A program made the position numbers and the translations under genes. Positions 12,899 to 18,928 of a stretch of DNA of 28,395 nt are shown one piece after another. Position 1 is the first letter of the stretch. The number at the start of each line of letters is the position of its first letter. Where the stretch lies: the IMG/VR virus record IMGVR_UViG_3300037961_003768, positions 1 to 28,395 of that record; one strand, written 5' to 3'. Under the pieces are notes generated by a model, which was given only the letters and a program-made list of their open reading frames with translations, did no database searches and was not told the DNA's origin. Source of the stretch: a virus.

Positions 12899-13534
12899 TT
12901 AAAGTTCGTAAAATTTTATTGCATCTTTGAGATAATTCTCATCTAAATCATTCTTCCATCTGTAATCATCAAAATTAGGTTGAATGAAATCTTTTATAAT
13001 TTTTGGATCAGAACTTATCTTAAGTAAGTTTTGTCTAACTTTACATCTGTGAATTATTTTAGGTATTCTTTTTTTAATATTCTCTGGTTTAAGTTCATCA
13101 CAATTGTCAGCATGAAATACTTTGAAAGATTCCTCATTGATGTAGCAAAGATAAACAGGTTTCTCAAAAACAGAATAATAAAAATCTACTTGCAATAAAT
13201 GATATTGCTCTGGTCTTTCTTCAGGTAGTTTATTATTTAACCAAGACCTAGTTCCATCTTTTTTAACTCTACCTTTTCTTGGGAACTTACATTTATCCTC
13301 AATGATAACATCACCTAATAAATCTACATATCCATGCACAGGAATATTAATACCATCAAACCATTTAAAAGCCTCTATCTCAGGTTTGCATTTTTCATAT
13401 CCAGGTATTGTTTGATGAGCTTTATGACCATTTTCTATCATCAAAGGAATGATAGATTTATAGTATTCAAACTCATCAAACTGAGAGATATGAACATTTA
13501 TTTTTTTAAATTTTTCGTTAATTGGTGTGAACAT
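12899..13534 (-). CDS. PD-(D/E)XK exonuclease, catalytic half (split gene), 211 aa
   Basis: 'GYVDLLG' supplies D71, 'VIIEDKCK' supplies E79-x-K81, and 'YHLLQVDFYYS' gives the Q115xxxY119 motif of RecB/Cas4-type nucleases. The C-terminal 'FIQPNFDDYRW' matches the end of this phage family. A full enzyme is usually near 300 residues and starts with a helical domain carrying 'SxSQLN...W...G..V'; that part is missing here but is encoded 2.6 kb away at 16108-16368. The ATG at 13534 (AGAGG upstream) overlaps the XRE gene. The likely role is 5' end resection for recombination. Confidence 0.8.
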   Translation of the reverse strand: MFTPINEKFKKINVHISQFDEFEYYKSIIPLMIENGHKAHQTIPGYEKCKPEIEAFKWFDGINIPVHGYVDLLGDVIIEDKCKFPRKGRVKKDGTRSWLNNKLPEERPEQYHLLQVDFYYSVFEKPVYLCYINEESFKVFHADNCDELKPENIKKRIPKIIHRCKVRQNLLKISSDPKIIKDFIQPNFDDYRWKNDLDENYLKDAIKFYEL

Positions 13535-13802
13535 TGTTTTCAACCTCTTGTTCTATAAAATAAGAAATAGGTTTATTTAAATATTTTGAAATTTCTAATA
13601 GTTTATCTACTGGAACTCTATTTACAGCCTTTTCATATTTTTGTATTTGTTGAAATGTAATGTTTAAAGCATTTGCCAATTCAGTTTGTGTTACATACCT
13701 TCTTGGCATTTTTCTTTGTGGATTGAATTGTTTTCTTGCCATATTTATTCTGGCAAATTTTATTCTTTCACCAATTTGTTTATATAGATGTGATGTTTCC
13801 AT
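13518..13802 (-). CDS. XRE-family helix-turn-helix regulator, 94 aa
   Basis: AGGAAGG lies directly before the ATG. Residues ~37-85 form a Cro/C1-type domain: 'VTQTELANALNITFQQIQKY' is the helix-turn-helix with the typical Q..I..YE turn, followed by 'VPVDKLLEISKYLNKPISYF'. There is no peptidase or dimerisation domain, so it is Cro-like or a restriction-controller-like regulator. It has its own sigma70 promoter, overlapped by an imperfect inverted repeat (autoregulation likely), and is coupled to the nuclease half downstream. Confidence 0.85.
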   Translation of the reverse strand: METSHLYKQIGERIKFARINMARKQFNPQRKMPRRYVTQTELANALNITFQQIQKYEKAVNRVPVDKLLEISKYLNKPISYFIEQEVENNVHTN

Positions 13803-13826
13803 TTTTCCTTCCTTATTTAAATTTAG

Positions 13827-13855
13827 AGTATAGAACCCCTATGCAGTTTATACAA
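13827..13855 (-). promoter_or_regulatory. Sigma70-type promoter for the XRE regulator and nuclease half
   Basis: On the minus strand TTGTAT (13850-13855) and TATACT (13827-13832) are separated by exactly 17 bases. The start would be near 13820, giving a leader of about 18 bases with AGGAAGG. GTATAAAC and GTTCTATAC form an imperfect inverted repeat across the promoter, a possible operator for the XRE protein. Confidence 0.6.
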
Positions 13856-13869
13856 CTTTCAATATTTAT

Positions 13870-14052
13870 CTATTTACAATAGATAAATTTAGCGTCTTTA
13901 TTTTCAAACTCTACAATTCTTCTATATGTTTTTACATATTCCTTGACAGCTTTTAAAGAATGAACGCATTGTCTTCTTTTTTGACCATTCATTATCTTTT
14001 TATGGTTTTCTTCAAGCTGTTTGTAGAGTCTAACATTATTGTTGCTCAACAT
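13870..14052 (-). CDS. Small basic hypothetical protein, 60 aa
   Basis: I take the ATG at 14052 (MLSNNNVRLYKQLEENHKKI); a GTG start seven codons earlier is possible. The rest (QKRRQCVHSLKAVKEYVKTY, then RRIVEFENKDAKFIYCK) is basic and helical with two cysteines. A GAGTAATAACTC inverted repeat lies just before the ATG, between it and a GAGGAG. The gene ends 68 bases before the XRE start and closes the upstream leftward chain. No family is recognised. Confidence 0.5.
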   Translation of the reverse strand: MLSNNNVRLYKQLEENHKKIMNGQKRRQCVHSLKAVKEYVKTYRRIVEFENKDAKFIYCK

Positions 14053-14251
14053 TAGAGTTATTACTCTCCTCACCGATTTTTTTTATGTTGCCTTGAATGA
14101 ACTTGCTGTCGGTGATTTTTATATCAGCAGTTTCGTTCAAGTCTTTTGAAGATTGTGCTTTTTGAGTAGCTTCCTCAATAGTTGCACCCTCAAAATACTG
14201 CTTTACTTGAGCTACTATTTCGTATGATGATGTTTTTTCAACTTTTATCAT
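14036..14251 (-). CDS. Hypothetical protein, 71 aa
   Basis: The product (MIKVEKTSSYEIVAQVKQYF, EGATIEEATQKAQSSKDLNE, then 'ADIKITDSKFIQGNIKKIGE') has a strand-helix-strand start and an Asn/Ser/Glu-rich, probably disordered tail (EESNNSNVEQQ). No motif is recognised. It overlaps both neighbours and lies directly after the LexA-like gene, so co-expression with recombination functions is expected. Confidence 0.55.
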   Translation of the reverse strand: MIKVEKTSSYEIVAQVKQYFEGATIEEATQKAQSSKDLNETADIKITDSKFIQGNIKKIGEESNNSNVEQQ

Positions 14252-14474
14252 TTAACTTTATATTTCTTCTATATCCTGGCATCCTTATTAGGTCGCCTCT
14301 TTGCTCAAGTTTCTCAACCAATTGAGTGATTGAGTTCTTGCTTTTGTACCCCATTTTATCAGCCATAAACTGAAAAGTAGGATAGAAACCATAATTTGTA
14401 TAATATTTTCTAACAAATTCAAGCAATCTTTTCATAGCTGGTGTCATGGGTCTTTTATTTTTTTCTTGTTTCAT
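14238..14474 (-). CDS. LexA-like winged-helix DNA-binding protein without peptidase domain, 78 aa
   Basis: The whole protein is one domain with the layout of the LexA N-terminus. 'MTPAMKRLLEFVRKYYTNYG' is followed by 'FYPTFQFMADKMGYKS', the 'G..PT...IA...G..S' signature, then 'NSITQLVEKLEQRGDLIRMP' and 'YRRNIKL' as the wing. LexA needs a C-terminal S24 peptidase for RecA-triggered cleavage and dimerisation, which is absent. It could compete with host LexA at SOS operators or regulate the phage block. Confidence 0.75.
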   Translation of the reverse strand: MKQEKNKRPMTPAMKRLLEFVRKYYTNYGFYPTFQFMADKMGYKSKNSITQLVEKLEQRGDLIRMPGYRRNIKLNDKS

Positions 14475-14751
14475 TTATAATTAACCCCCTCAAAAGTTCC
14501 GCATATCCTTGAATATCGTCAAAACTATCAGCTTTGTATCTATCTGATTGCATGACCCTCCAACATTTTAAAAATATCATAATTATACCAAAAAATTTAA
14601 TTGGCACTTTTACATCTTTATTATTGTAAAATGTCAAGTATTCAGACATTATCTTAGTCATTATGTAGCTTGTATAATCAAAGCCACCATAGTCTTTTTC
14701 TTTTTGTTCTAATAATTTTTCTAAACTTTTTGTAAATTTAATATCATTCAT
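14455..14751 (-). CDS. DUF6378/DUF1599-like, MazG-related all-alpha protein, 98 aa
   Basis: 'LEQKEKDYGGFDYTSYIM' near the N-terminus and 'FLKCWRVMQSDRYKADSFDD' with 'IQGYAELL' near the end match the phage domain 'K..DYG.f......A..w..yL.......v...l..lK..R.......D...D..GY..L'. Family relatives are linked to nucleotide pyrophosphatases or to nucleotide modification. The acidic residues expected for metal binding are partly present (D and E in the last helix). It may adjust nucleotide pools or modified bases; the exact substrate is unknown. Confidence 0.65.
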   Translation of the reverse strand: MNDIKFTKSLEKLLEQKEKDYGGFDYTSYIMTKIMSEYLTFYNNKDVKVPIKFFGIIMIFLKCWRVMQSDRYKADSFDDIQGYAELLRGLIINETRKK

Positions 14752-14971
14752 ATTCTGTTCCTAAATACCATTTGCCATGTGCATTGATACAATAATGGCT
14801 GCCGACAGTGTAATTATTATAAAATCCCAAATATCCATTTTTTACCTCTTTGAATTCTACCAGTGCCTCAAATATTTCATCACAAGTGAGAAAAGTTTTT
14901 ACCTCAATTTTTTTCCAGTAATAACTAGACTCACTTGTGACTAGCAAAAGAAACAAATAAACAACTTTCAA
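14744..14971 (-). CDS. Small exported protein, 75 aa (TTG start)
   Basis: No ATG exists before the hydrophobic N-terminus, so a TTG at 14971, five bases after the previous stop, is the best start. 'MKVVYLFLLLVTSESSYYWK' is a signal-peptide-like segment. The rest has two cysteines (FLTCDEIFEA and SHYCINAHGKWY). It resembles in style the other short secreted products of this phage (8890-9099, 10420-10662) but is expressed from the early leftward block. Modification of the envelope, for example superinfection exclusion, is possible but unproven. Confidence 0.5.
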   Translation of the reverse strand: MKVVYLFLLLVTSESSYYWKKIEVKTFLTCDEIFEALVEFKEVKNGYLGFYNNYTVGSHYCINAHGKWYLGTEYE

Positions 14972-14976
14972 ACTAA

Positions 14977-15345
14977 CTAGAAGGGAGCTGCTTGTTGTCT
15001 ATTATCTTGTTTCTTGTTTGCATCTTTTCTTGGTTCGTTCTTATAACCAGAAAGAATTGTTCCAGAGTCATTCAACCAGGCTATCAAGCCTTTCTCTCCC
15101 CCTGCATCTGGGTAATTGATTTGACCTGTAAATTTGTCATCACCTTTAAATAGAACACCGACTTGAGCAAATATTCTAACAAATCTTTTTGATCCATCTT
15201 TACTGGATGCTTTGACACCTAAAATTGTACCTTTAGCACCATTAGTTAAAGATATGTTTCCAGAAAAATCTAATTTGATAGACTTTTCATTGTTTGGCTC
15301 ATACGGAAATAGTGCAAAATCTTTTTGCTTACCATTGTTTGACAT
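14977..15345 (-). CDS. OB-fold-like protein, possible ssDNA-binding protein, 122 aa
   Basis: GGAGGT stands six bases before the ATG at 15345, so I prefer this start to the ATG four codons upstream. The body is beta-rich (KLDFSGNISLTNGAKGTILG, then 'KRFVRIFAQVGVLFKGDDKF') with 'GEKGLIAWLND', followed by a disordered Lys/Gln tail ending QQAAPF. The final Pro-Phe recalls the PF tip by which SSB proteins recruit partners, though the acidic residues are lacking. Its place next to an annealing protein supports ssDNA binding. No direct family match is claimed. Confidence 0.5.
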   Translation of the reverse strand: MSNNGKQKDFALFPYEPNNEKSIKLDFSGNISLTNGAKGTILGVKASSKDGSKRFVRIFAQVGVLFKGDDKFTGQINYPDAGGEKGLIAWLNDSGTILSGYKNEPRKDANKKQDNRQQAAPF

Positions 15346-15934
15346 TTTGACCTCCATTAGTCTTTATTGTTTGTTGTTTATTCTGAAATAGTTTTTCTAT
15401 TTCTTCTTGGTTGTTTTTCCAATCCGAATAGAGTTTATTCAACTTTGTTTCAGTTGTTTGTGATTCTATCCTTTCTTTGATTGAAACTGTTTTAGTATTT
15501 GTTTTAGTACCGCTTTGATTATTCAAAGCATTAACTAATTCTTCAGCACTAGCATATTCTGAACCTGATAACCCAAACGCTGCTAAACATCTACCTAACG
15601 CTGAACTGGAGCAATTTTCTAATGCACTTGTTTTATTAATAAATGATGAATTTCTAAATTCTTCTGCAAAGCCAACTGAATAAATTGTTTCACCAATATA
15701 AAGTTCAGTTTTAACAATTACTCTTTCAACGTCATGGAATATTACTTCTTCATTAAATCTTGCCTCTGGAAAATATTGTAATAAATGTTTATGCCTTTCG
15801 TTTACTGTAGAATATTTTTTACCTTTAATATTTACTGTTGGAATATTTATTGCTTTTTCTAAACAATCCTTTCTTCTTTCTTTAAAAGAACCTTTACTTT
15901 TTTCTATTGGCTCTTGCACTTGTTTTCTTGTCAT
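15329..15934 (-). CDS. Single-strand annealing protein, ERF/Rad52-like superfamily, 201 aa
   Basis: The central domain has 'RVIVKTELYIGETIYSVGFA' strands and the helix 'KTSALENCSSSALGRCLAAF' followed by 'GLSGSEYASAEELVNAL'. This 'ALE...SSA.GRALA..GL' signature is shared by ERF-type recombinases and the related phage annealing proteins of marine viruses. It would anneal complementary ssDNA made by the exonuclease. The ATG at 15934 is preferred because GAGGAAAG sits before it. A Lys/Gln-rich C-terminal tail may bind partners. Start and end overlap both neighbours. Confidence 0.75.
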   Translation of the reverse strand: MTRKQVQEPIEKSKGSFKERRKDCLEKAINIPTVNIKGKKYSTVNERHKHLLQYFPEARFNEEVIFHDVERVIVKTELYIGETIYSVGFAEEFRNSSFINKTSALENCSSSALGRCLAAFGLSGSEYASAEELVNALNNQSGTKTNTKTVSIKERIESQTTETKLNKLYSDWKNNQEEIEKLFQNKQQTIKTNGGQNVKQW

Positions 15935-16118
15935 TTCTTTCCTCATTTAGTTGTTTATTTAAAAAATCTATTAATTCTTGTTTTTTCTCTAATTGCTTTT
16001 TTAATTCTGTTATTTCTTCATCTCTTTCCAATAACATATTTTTTTTAATTTTTTGCTCATGTTCTAAATCTTTAATTCTTCTCTGCATGGTAGCAGCTTT
16101 ATTTAAACTAAGTTCCAT
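15894..16118 (-). CDS. Coiled-coil protein, 74 aa
   Basis: The ATG at 16118 has AAGGTG just before it; a GTG two codons upstream is an alternative. Almost the whole product is a charged coiled coil (RDEEITELKKQLEKKQELID) with a basic end (DKKTSARANRKK). It begins within the last codons of the nuclease N-terminal half and ends within the annealing protein gene. It might bridge the nuclease and annealing proteins, but this is inference from position. Confidence 0.55.
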   Translation of the reverse strand: MELSLNKAATMQRRIKDLEHEQKIKKNMLLERDEEITELKKQLEKKQELIDFLNKQLNEERNDKKTSARANRKK

Positions 16119-16368
16119 CTTCACCTTTCATAACTTCTTTTGTAGTTAAATTGTAAACTATTCTGTCTTGCATAGCCTGACCGACCAAAGCACCTGCAAT
16201 CATTTTGGCGTTTGGAGGTATGTTTTTTCTTTGTTGTTCATCAAGTACGCAATAGTCATTGAACCACTGATCTATAGGTTTATTTAGTTGACTTGGACTA
16301 AGATGAGTTGCACTAAAACATCCACCTTCTTTTTTATGAGTAAATTCTTTCCCAATTTTTTTAAGCAT
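16108..16368 (-). CDS. PD-(D/E)XK exonuclease, N-terminal helical half (split gene), 86 aa
   Basis: 'ATHLSPSQLNKPIDQWFNDY' followed by 'AKMIAGALVGQAMQDRIVYN' is the N-terminal signature of phage RecB-like exonucleases ('S.SQLN....W...Y' then 'G..V..A....'). The frame ends at VMKGEDGT just where full-length relatives enter the catalytic domain, and no catalytic D/ExK residues are present. The missing part is encoded at 12899-13534. Together they make about 297 residues, the usual full size. It is the first gene of the leftward block, and the mapped promoter puts its mRNA start one base before the ATG. Confidence 0.7.
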   Translation of the reverse strand: MLKKIGKEFTHKKEGGCFSATHLSPSQLNKPIDQWFNDYCVLDEQQRKNIPPNAKMIAGALVGQAMQDRIVYNLTTKEVMKGEDGT

Positions 16369-16463: not shown

Positions 16464-16658
16464 ATGAAGGGAAAACATCCAAATATTTATATGGACTATA
16501 GGACTTGTTGTAAATGCAAAAATTCAGCAGATGTAGTAGAAGGTTCTAAGGATTATTGTGCTAGTTGTTATTTCATTCATATTGTTGGTATGCCAATTGA
16601 ACAATATGAAAAAAACCAAAACCAATTAAAAGAAAAAAAAAGACAAAAGTATGAATAA
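16464..16658 (+). CDS. Small zinc-ribbon protein, 64 aa
   Basis: 'RTCCKCKNSADVVEGSKDYC' continues into 'ASCYF', giving CxxC (with an extra Cys) and a second CxxC, the spacing of a small zinc ribbon. The C-terminus is a Lys/Gln-rich helix (YEKNQNQLKEKKRQKYE). The ATG at 16464 is chosen; the one at 16457 leads to a short dead frame. It overlaps the methyltransferase start by eight bases. Nucleic acid or RNA polymerase contact is plausible for such early proteins, but no target can be named. Confidence 0.65.
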   Translation: MKGKHPNIYMDYRTCCKCKNSADVVEGSKDYCASCYFIHIVGMPIEQYEKNQNQLKEKKRQKYE

Positions 16659-17187
16659 TTTAAATATTGTTGGACATAATACAAAAAAAGATAGAATTGA
16701 TTATGATTTTTACCCAACACCAGAAATAGCAACATTAAAATTATTAGAAAAAGAGTCATTTAAAGGAAATATTTGGGAATGTGCTTGTGGTGATGGTGCA
16801 ATTAGTAAAATATTAAAATCAAAAAATTATGAAGTTTTTAGTTCAGATATAGTTTTTAGAGATTATGGAGAAAAAACAATAGATTTTTTAAATTCAAAAA
16901 TGATTTTTGACAATATAATAACCAATCCACCTTTTAAATTATCTTTGGAGTTTGCTTTACATGGTCTTAAATCAGTAAAAAATAAAATGGTTTTGTTTCA
17001 AAAATTAGTTTTTTTAGAGGGTATAAAAAGAAAGAAAGAATTATTTTCATTAAATAAATTAAAAAATATTTATGTAATTAGTAATAGATTAAAATTCAAG
17101 GGATATAAAACTGGTGGCTTAATGTGTTTTGCTTGGTTTATATTTGATGTTAATTACAATGGTAAACCTACTATTGATTGGATATGA
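16651..17187 (+). CDS. N6-adenine DNA methyltransferase, 178 aa
   Basis: 'DYDFYPTPEIATLKLLEK' is the N-terminal signature of many phage adenine methyltransferases. 'WECACGDGAISKIL' (residues 42-55) is the SAM-binding motif I with D66 at the end of the next strand. 'NIITNPPFKLSLEF' holds the catalytic NPPF motif (92-95). There is no separate target-recognition domain, so specificity is short or loose. It probably protects phage DNA from host restriction. It overlaps the next gene by ATGA. Confidence 0.85.
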   Translation: MNNLNIVGHNTKKDRIDYDFYPTPEIATLKLLEKESFKGNIWECACGDGAISKILKSKNYEVFSSDIVFRDYGEKTIDFLNSKMIFDNIITNPPFKLSLEFALHGLKSVKNKMVLFQKLVFLEGIKRKKELFSLNKLKNIYVISNRLKFKGYKTGGLMCFAWFIFDVNYNGKPTIDWI

Positions 17188-17693
17188 AAATAAAACTTAA
17201 CTCTAATGATGTTGAATTAGCTTATACAACAGCTCAAAGAAGATTTATTGGTAATGTAAGAATGAACAAAGGTTTTTCTTATGGTTACAATAAAAATTTA
17301 AAGAATCAATTATATGATGGGTTTTTAGGTGCTATGGGTGAAGTTGTTTATGCAAAGGCAACTAATAGCTTTTTTAATGGTTCATACACTGACAATAATG
17401 AGTTTTATTCTAACTCCGACTTTCAAAACAATATAGAAATTAGAACACAAGATAAAAAATCATATAATTTTTTGTTAATTAGACCTGGAGAAAAGCAAGG
17501 AAAGTATTTTTTAATAATAAAAGACAATGACAAAGATTATAATTTTACAATTAAAGGTTGGTTTTTATATAAAGATGATTTACCACCTGAAAAACTATCT
17601 AATTTTGGCTATCAGGATAGACCTGCTGCTTATAAAATTGAAATAAATGAACTAACACCATTGGAGGCAAATGTCAGACAAGATAAATTTTAA
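17184..17693 (+). CDS. PD-(D/E)XK nuclease-fold-like phage protein, 169 aa
   Basis: The ATG at 17184 overlaps the previous TGA, so I prefer it to the TTG two codons earlier. 'GFLGAMGEVVYAKA' gives a G..GE helix, followed by 'SDFQNNIEIRTQDKKSYNFL' and 'KYFLIIK', then 'FTIKGWFLYKDD' and 'GYQDRPAAYKIEINEL'. I know this order (G..GE, D, EVRT, L.IR, YVLV, GWI, RPAYFV) as a recurring uncharacterised phage family with a restriction-nuclease-like core. Arg stands where Lys is usual in ExK, so activity is uncertain. Confidence 0.55.
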   Translation: MKIKLNSNDVELAYTTAQRRFIGNVRMNKGFSYGYNKNLKNQLYDGFLGAMGEVVYAKATNSFFNGSYTDNNEFYSNSDFQNNIEIRTQDKKSYNFLLIRPGEKQGKYFLIIKDNDKDYNFTIKGWFLYKDDLPPEKLSNFGYQDRPAAYKIEINELTPLEANVRQDKF

Positions 17694-18315
17694 ATTATTT
17701 AAACCTTTTGGTTCAACTCTTGCAAAAGCAGAGTTGCCATTACAACTATTAAAAGATTTCAAAGATGATTTAAAAACAATAAGAGAAGATAAGCAAAAAA
17801 GAAAAGATCATAACTGGGGAGATAGGCTTGTAGGTCATGTTCAAGAAGAATATTTAATATCTCCTCCTATCATGCTTAAGTGGAAAGCAGCTTTTTTTGA
17901 TCCAATTATTATATCATATACTAACGCACATTTTAAAATGGAAAAGGTAAAATCAGTTTTAATTAATTCAGCATGGTACGTTGTTTCAAAACCAGGAGAT
18001 TACAACCCTTTACATAATCATTCAGAATATATTAAAGGTAATTATAGTTTAAGCTGCGTAGGTTATTTATCATTGCCAGAATCAATGATTCCTAGTGAAA
18101 ATGCAAAATCACATAACGATTATAGCGGACAAATTCAGTTTGTTGAAGGTTCGGAAAATCAATTTTCTGATAGTCAACTTAGAATAGATCCAAAGGTAAG
18201 GGATTGGTATTTATTTCCTAATTATTTAATGCACTCTGTATATGCTTTTAATTCAGAAAATAAAAACGCTGAACGTATTTCTTTTAGTTTTAATGCTACA
18301 ATAAACTTTGAATAA
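17671..18315 (+). CDS. 2OG-Fe(II) oxygenase, phage type, 214 aa
   Basis: GGAGG precedes the ATG. The C-terminal half has 'YNPLHNHSEY' (iron ligands likely H115 or H117), 'LSCVGYLSLPES', 'WYLFPNYLMHSVYAF' (H188) and 'ERISFSFNA' (R202 for 2-oxoglutarate). This matches the 2OG-FeII_Oxy_5-type family common in marine phages. It would use 2-oxoglutarate and O2 to hydroxylate a substrate, possibly a nucleobase or protein; the substrate is unknown. Co-transcription with a methyltransferase favours a nucleic acid target. Its end overlaps the converging HNH gene by 20 bases. Confidence 0.8.
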   Translation: MSDKINFKLFKPFGSTLAKAELPLQLLKDFKDDLKTIREDKQKRKDHNWGDRLVGHVQEEYLISPPIMLKWKAAFFDPIIISYTNAHFKMEKVKSVLINSAWYVVSKPGDYNPLHNHSEYIKGNYSLSCVGYLSLPESMIPSENAKSHNDYSGQIQFVEGSENQFSDSQLRIDPKVRDWYLFPNYLMHSVYAFNSENKNAERISFSFNATINFE

Positions 18316-18928
18316 GTTTATTTCCTTTACTTATATTTTCTTCAGCAGGAATAATTCTTAAATTATTTTCTACATGAAGACCGCAAACTTTGTCATTTAT
18401 TAATGGTATTATGTGATCTACATGAAAACCTTTAGGACAATTTTTATAAATTTTTTCTATTTCTTTTAAATTTGCCCATTTAGGAGTTGCGTTTAGTTTG
18501 TCTGCTCTCCTTTTAGCTTGTCTTATTTTATGAGGTACTAAAAAATTATCAGTTTTTCTAAATTTATTTATAAAAAATATGTATTTAGAACTTAATTGAT
18601 ATTTTGCCCTGTATTTTTTAAGTGTGCCATTAGCTTTTAATTTTTGTATGTAATTTATATATTTTTCTTTTTTTCTATATTGTTTTAAATAAATATTTTT
18701 TTTTGTTTTATATTTAGTTGATTTTTCTGCACAACTTTTTTTACAGTATTTTCTATTTTTAGCATAACTTGTATCTGTAAATTCTAAATTACAATTAAGA
18801 CATTTTTTTTTAATTGTTATAGGTGTTTTTCTTCTACCTTTTGATTTACATTTATAAGAACAATATTTTTTTACTTTATTTACCGAAAAATCAATAAATG
18901 AAGTTTTGCAAAATAAGCATTTTTTCAT
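18296..18928 (-). CDS. HNH endonuclease with two N-terminal zinc fingers, 210 aa
   Basis: Two similar CxxC...CxxxC fingers (C4/C7/C23/C27 and C43/C46/C62/C66) precede a lysine-rich linker. The HNH domain is 'PKGFHVDHIIPLINDKVCGL' followed by 'HVENNLRIIPAEENISKGNK' (H169, D171, H172, N189, N198). This matches free-standing phage homing-type endonucleases. It lies on the opposite strand to the oxygenase gene, has its own promoter and is even more AT- and Lys-rich than its surroundings, all of which fit a mobile gene. Confidence 0.85.
   Translation of the reverse strand: MKKCLFCKTSFIDFSVNKVKKYCSYKCKSKGRRKTPITIKKKCLNCNLEFTDTSYAKNRKYCKKSCAEKSTKYKTKKNIYLKQYRKKEKYINYIQKLKANGTLKKYRAKYQLSSKYIFFINKFRKTDNFLVPHKIRQAKRRADKLNATPKWANLKEIEKIYKNCPKGFHVDHIIPLINDKVCGLHVENNLRIIPAEENISKGNKLIQSLL

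Follow-up and report, generated by a model that had tools for sequence, protein, structure and literature searches.

A PD-(D/E)XK nuclease encoded by two separated genes in the recombination operon of SAR11 viruses

Two parts of one nuclease gene

We analyzed a 28,395-base virus record from IMG/VR (IMGVR_UViG_3300037961_003768; the whole record is referred to as the window), in which two genes at opposite ends of one operon encode the N-terminal third and the C-terminal two-thirds of a single PD-(D/E)XK nuclease. Both lie on the minus strand. The first is an open reading frame (ORF) of 86 residues at 16108-16368, called NT here for putative N-terminal subunit, which contains an LSPSQL...W...Y segment and a helix, alphaA, at about residues 56-72, with a G-x3-G-x3-Q motif at the motif Ia position of RecB-type nucleases. 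Its landmarks are, in order, SPSQLNKPIDQW, GALVGQAMQDRI and the C-terminal VMKGEDGT. The second, at 12899-13534, encodes 211 residues (CAT, putative catalytic subunit), begins with its own ATG, opens with MFTPINEKFKKI and contains GYVDLLG, IIEDKCK and QVDFY. It holds the RecB/RecE/Cas4-type motifs I (E52), II (D71), III (E79-x-K81) and IV (Q115-x3-Y119), and these six residues were invariant among 38 relatives (alignment A4). Together, the two products amount to 297 residues. Coordinates, strand and sequences of both ORFs were as given in an earlier sequence-only reading of this DNA, which had also regarded them as complementary parts of one RecB/RecE/Cas4-like nuclease.

Comparison with longer proteins bore out that assignment. 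In tblastn searches against phage genomes, both halves matched C72C1 CDS0045 (270 residues), CAT corresponding to its C-terminal and NT to its N-terminal part. A profile of 310 positions built from 33 one-gene proteins only was filled by NT at positions 25-85 (E = 8.6e-14) and by CAT at positions 116-306 (E = 4.5e-44), with no overlap. Likewise, hhalign placed NT on residues 5-66 (P = 3e-10) and CAT on residue 87 onward (E = 1e-29) of the 270-residue C72C1-type protein, and detected no similarity between NT and CAT themselves. When 3538 ORFs were searched with NT using phmmer, its orthologues came first and one-gene nucleases, matched at their N-termini, came next (E = 2e-5 to 7e-4), with background starting at E = 0.26, and the nucleases found in this way were the same ones that CAT matched independently. 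Furthermore, when 8815 ORFs were searched with an NT profile, E values were 1e-5 to 1e-11 for C72C1-like proteins and about 1e-5 to 1e-9 for HTVC028P-like ones; the Greip-like group, which is more distant, was at background for NT alone. The 86-residue product matched no other family, and the alignments of the 211-residue product with longer nucleases were confined to their C-terminal two-thirds. Searches of Pfam and of solved-structure sequences were uninformative for NT, CAT and the family.

The stretch of the profile covered by neither half coincides with insertions that the HTVC028P and Greip groups have in comparison with C72C1. About 5 residues of NT and about 22 of CAT fall outside the homology at the break, compared with about 20 residues in C72C1, so nothing essential has been lost at the junction. 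This agrees with the prior suggestion that little or nothing is missing, at least relative to the closest one-gene relatives.

Structure prediction was informative about the position of the cut. A one-gene relative (locus L112) was predicted as a single domain (predicted local distance difference test, pLDDT, 95.4; predicted template modelling score, pTM, 0.90), in which the NT-equivalent residues (up to about 70) form helices, including alphaA at 44-62 with a GTAVHGGLQ motif. According to Foldseek and VIA-align, this model matches RecE, 3l0a, ACE1, Cas4, AdnA, Dna2, MGME1, AddB and lambda exonuclease, with Z scores of 13.7 for RecE (188 aligned residues, 3.7 Å), 12.2 for AdnA and 11.2-11.3 for MGME1. 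The AlphaFold model of the window CAT (pLDDT 88.8), which is without the alphaA helix, matches MGME1 at Z 10.9 (115 aligned residues, 2.3 Å) and RecE at Z 9.6. Given that NT spans alphaA and that CAT aligns to MGME1 only from residue about 198 onward (about 121-129 for the fused model), motif Ia lies on one side of the break and motifs I-IV on the other. The cut lies in the length-variable stretch just after alphaA, and this helix, still present, is now encoded apart from the catalytic core.

NT has W35, Y39, R47, G59 and Q67 in common with the one-gene relatives. At the position of the motif Ia histidine, C72C1-like proteins retain this residue, NT and the HTVC028P group have Gly, and the Greip group has Asn. 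In MGME1, the corresponding His180 contacts the metal ion and the H180Q change significantly lowers activity (PMC6237815). An assignment to Cas4 proper, which requires four conserved cysteines for its Fe-S cluster (PMC5704561), was rejected, as alignments A2 and A4 contain no invariant cysteine.

Operon organization and distribution of the split

Nine operon genes lie between NT and CAT, all in the same direction on the minus strand, in the order of the split clade. NT is followed by a short coiled-coil ORF (15894-16124, from the ORF list), with a short ORF at the same position in the one-gene relatives (HTVC028P gp08 and Skadi7_26), and then by an annealing-protein-like gene (15329-15946; phrog_11717, E = 4.5e-22) homologous to the gene at the same position in the HTVC028P group. 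Next come a small protein conserved in split loci (14977-15357), with no significant Pfam or PHROG match and putatively OB/SSB-like from its position and the earlier reading; a 75-residue gene (14744-14971, from the ORF list); and a 98-residue DUF6378/'phosphofructokinase'-like (PFK-like) gene (14455-14751). A winged-helix protein (14238-14474; Pfam LexA_DNA_bind, E = 3.6e-9) resembles the LexA DNA-binding domain without the protease part and is kept between the halves in split loci. Two genes of 71 (14036-14251) and 67 residues (13870-14073), both conserved in split loci, precede an XRE/Cro-type helix-turn-helix regulator (13518-13802; Pfam HTH_3, E = 2e-9), whose 3' end overlaps the start of CAT.

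The nuclease family is paired with three annealing families, namely Sak-like in C72C1, Erf-like in HTVC034P, and phrog_11717 in the HTVC028P and split groups (genes compared: L002, 5537-6196; L003, 5376-5972; L004, 5558-6205; window, 15329-15946). Because one nuclease family pairs with all three, phrog_11717, whose function is listed as unknown, is likely an annealing protein.

A one-gene nuclease is carried by C72C1, HTVC028P, HTVC034P, Lederberg, Greip, Skadi and others. Their proteins (for example, C72C1 CDS0045, HTVC028P gp07, HTVC034P gp15, Lederberg gp44 and Greip gp37) are homologous over both halves. They share with the split version the catalytic motifs and the place ahead of the annealing-protein gene but, unlike it, are single chains of 270-360 residues in which alphaA and core are unbroken. 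In the HTVC028P group, the whole nuclease, annealing, PFK-like and XRE genes follow one another on one strand; several of the genes between the halves are thus shared with the operon of one-gene relatives, where the PFK-like gene is again between nuclease and XRE. No nuclease part was found behind XRE in this group, where the genes are unrelated to the nuclease. Since the one-gene operon has the same order with the nuclease in front, it is the front third that stayed and the catalytic part that moved behind XRE. The 3' part of the nuclease gene has thus been relocated relative to the relatives.

The split is present in a clade of pelagiphages, viruses of the abundant ocean bacterium SAR11. A first IMG/VR scan with the catalytic half gave 232 relatives, 80 of which were kept, and four further scans were added. 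The collected set comprises 139 fused entries, 91 split loci in which both halves are present (82 of them non-identical) and 48 entries that have just the catalytic part, a few contigs being represented twice. The closest named relative at the locus is the cultured SAR11 phage HTVC106P (77% identity for CAT, 60% for NT), whose complete genome carries the split; it is the only one among the 22 phage records matching the nuclease to do so. This complete genome and the 91 loci rule out an assembly artefact. In all 91 loci the two genes are on the same strand, with 2519-3634 bases (median 2717) from the end of NT to the start of CAT. No second copy of NT or CAT occurs in the window or in HTVC106P, and the bacterial genomes searched contained no relatives.

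Split loci with CAT only are explained by contigs that stop short of the expected place of NT, three of which hold a truncated NT at the contig edge. Two loci that seemed to offer room but no NT (L142 and L144) were rejected as exceptions, because an inserted PAPS-reductase-like gene pushes NT beyond the contig end. Such a gene stands ahead of the annealing gene in some split loci (L142, 170-997; L144, 2-427), and in C72C1 and HTVC034P the fused nuclease likewise has a PAPS-reductase gene directly upstream. An apparent second split in contig 3300030095_005159 (L199/L200), with ranges about 10 bases apart, was read as one gene with an assembly gap.

Phylogenetic analysis placed the split CAT proteins in one clade with support of 100/100, and the nuclease gene was divided once, with a single origin. 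The tree carried a long-branch warning, and the exact sister group of the split clade is unsure because of these long branches. The sequence-only reading had proposed that the split arose by insertion of a cassette into the gene or by inversion. Neither fits, as the annealing, PFK-like and XRE genes are already downstream, in the same order and on the same strand, in one-gene relatives. Instead of a single transposition of the 3' part, the operon may, with even odds in our view, have been duplicated in tandem, after which the front copy lost the 3' part of the nuclease gene and the rear copy its 5' part; this is a matter of origin and not of function. Duplication and loss would account for a 3' part behind XRE on the same strand with the intervening gene order unchanged, but no two-copy intermediate was seen among the 139 fused and 91 split entries.

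Three further genes of the window were annotated by eye. The gene at 16651-17187 encodes a 178-residue protein with an NPPF-type motif that looks DNA methyltransferase-like. That at 17671-18315 encodes a 214-residue protein resembling 2-oxoglutarate oxygenases, and members of this protein's family are kept upstream of NT in 37 split loci. A Cys-rich protein of 210 residues (18296-18928) has an HNH-like C-terminus (HVDHIIPL) and is possibly a free-standing HNH endonuclease; its gene is not located between the nuclease halves.

Selection, co-variation and expression of the two genes

Both halves are under purifying selection. The median ratio of nonsynonymous to synonymous substitution rates (dN/dS) across the 82 non-identical split loci was 0.25 for NT and 0.22 for CAT, inside the range of the other operon genes. 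Co-evolution was assessed by a partial mirror-tree approach, in which pairwise protein distances were correlated with the other genes held fixed, at three levels of redundancy removal. NT-CAT ranked top of 15 gene pairs at all three levels (0.62, 0.51 and 0.51). The correlation was about -0.10 between NT and the annealing gene, which is near NT, and 0.17-0.39 between the adjoining XRE and CAT. With genes outside the cassette as background controls, NT-CAT was first in three of four sets (0.70, 0.75 and 0.77) and second in the fourth (0.52, behind 0.55 for OB-like-XRE); NT against the outer genes gave -0.50 to 0.25. In a permutation test, NT-LexA-like, OB-like-XRE, LexA-like-XRE and XRE-CAT were also significant. 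As some other pairs reach significance too, we take the co-variation of NT and CAT as support for contact and not as proof.

The start of CAT usually overlaps the XRE stop by one base (TAATG-type), and by up to 44 bases in some loci. This short stop/start overlap suggests linked translation of XRE and CAT, without showing regulation. A promoter scan found promoter-like sites no more commonly than in shuffled sequence, the count being below the shuffle mean. The previous idea of two promoters, with the catalytic half under separate XRE control, is therefore not borne out: all genes run in one direction, promoter-like sites are not above the shuffle, and CAT is coupled to XRE. A role of the split in control is doubtful in our view, although it can be formulated, in that nuclease would form only after both ends of the operon are transcribed and XRE is translated through its stop into CAT. 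Activity would then lag behind, or be gated relative to, the annealing protein, with the scarcer subunit setting the limit.

A probable two-subunit nuclease and its relation to known systems

We consider it probable (approximately 0.8) that NT and CAT form a two-subunit exonuclease partnering the annealing protein and derived from the once-divided, relocated gene. In this reading, the ancestor had a single RecB/RecE/Cas4-type PD-(D/E)XK gene heading a recombination operon, beside the gene for a single-strand annealing protein. In one pelagiphage lineage, this gene was cut once in the length-variable stretch after alphaA, the 5' third being kept in place as a gene of ~85 residues and the catalytic two-thirds now lying about 2.6 kb downstream, directly behind XRE and with a start codon of its own. 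The two products most likely associate non-covalently as a heterodimer or in a higher order, NT supplying the N-terminal helices along with alphaA (motif Ia), and CAT the beta-sheet core with motifs I-IV, and the complex would resect DNA ends for annealing-based recombination or replication. The selection, co-occurrence and co-evolution data fit the reassembly in trans that had been suggested from sequence; physical assembly and exonuclease activity are inferred.

Several points weigh against a two-subunit enzyme. NT has Gly in place of the motif Ia histidine, just as two one-gene groups have Gly or Asn, and the contribution of the severed helix might therefore be structural and not catalytic. 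The CAT model folds alone with fair confidence, and activity of CAT by itself is possible. Furthermore, distances can co-vary for reasons other than contact, and the sequence pairs are not independent. The first two points would also suit a CAT that is a sufficient, reduced nuclease, given that it holds motifs I-IV, with NT a retained fragment in a new role such as binding the annealing protein or DNA. We regard this as improbable, because NT retains W35, Y39, R47, G59 and Q67 under purifying selection and co-varies with CAT and not with the annealing gene near it, and because the RecE match drops from the Z of 13.7 for a whole one-gene relative to 9.6 for CAT alone.

Joining of the pieces into one chain, by split-intein protein trans-splicing or by RNA trans-splicing, deserves mention because split phage genes are known to contain inteins, introns and other interruptions (PMC3653736). 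It is nevertheless very hard to reconcile with the locus: the residues outside homology (~5 in NT and ~22 in CAT) are too few for intein halves, the window contains no intron or other Rfam family, and CAT starts at an ATG of its own that is coupled to the XRE stop. Equally implausible is a decaying nuclease of which both pieces are remnants being lost. Neither piece is recognized by any Pfam family, as would suit decay, but this explanation is already contradicted by two genes that are intact in 91 loci and a complete cultured phage, with invariant catalytic residues and dN/dS of about 0.2.

If the halves do assemble, a natural PD-(D/E)XK nuclease is here severed within its catalytic domain, with the motif Ia helix on one side of the cut and the core on the other, and has been stably kept in this form by a large clade of ocean phages. 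Such a split enzyme would be ready-made for structure work and engineering, would show gene fission uncomplicated by a homing endonuclease or intein, and would allow the contribution of alphaA in RecB-type nucleases to be tested. It would also give likely functions to two HTVC106P genes, gp12 and gp22, that are annotated as hypothetical.

RecE also works with an annealing protein, RecT. E. coli RecE (PDB 3h4r) and human MGME1 (PDB 5zyu), which rank with the best structural matches to the whole nuclease, are single chains with alphaA in the polypeptide of the core, whereas the split nuclease has alphaA on another gene. Split phage enzymes that reassemble are known already. Split ribonucleotide reductases are common in phages (PMC3653736), and the NrdA of Aeh1, the Aeromonas phage DNA polymerase gp43A/gp43B and the large subunit of T4 topoisomerase are each an ancestral chain encoded as two genes (PMC2988022). 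As in those cases, intact one-gene homologues exist that NT and CAT jointly cover. The split NrdA of Aeh1 is active and gp43A/B of phage 25 co-purify with activity (PMC2988022); for the nuclease, we infer assembly. In NrdA, gp43 and the topoisomerase, a homing endonuclease or a short insert separates adjacent halves, which is usual for split phage enzymes but does not strictly define them. Here, in contrast, the halves are separated by nine ordinary operon genes, the second half being at the far end, and none of the 10 scanned genes of the stretch (the 75-residue gene lay outside the scan) showed a match to any homing endonuclease family. A gene in two separate locations is also seen in the fractured genes with split inteins (Dassa 2009, as cited in PMC3653736), but the nuclease has no intein sequence and no room for one. 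Our literature search returned no report of this split. As far as the literature found goes, what is new is that a RecB-type nuclease has been cut within the catalytic domain, with neither homing endonuclease nor intein, and that, in a stable clade, one nuclease half has been relocated to the operon's far end.

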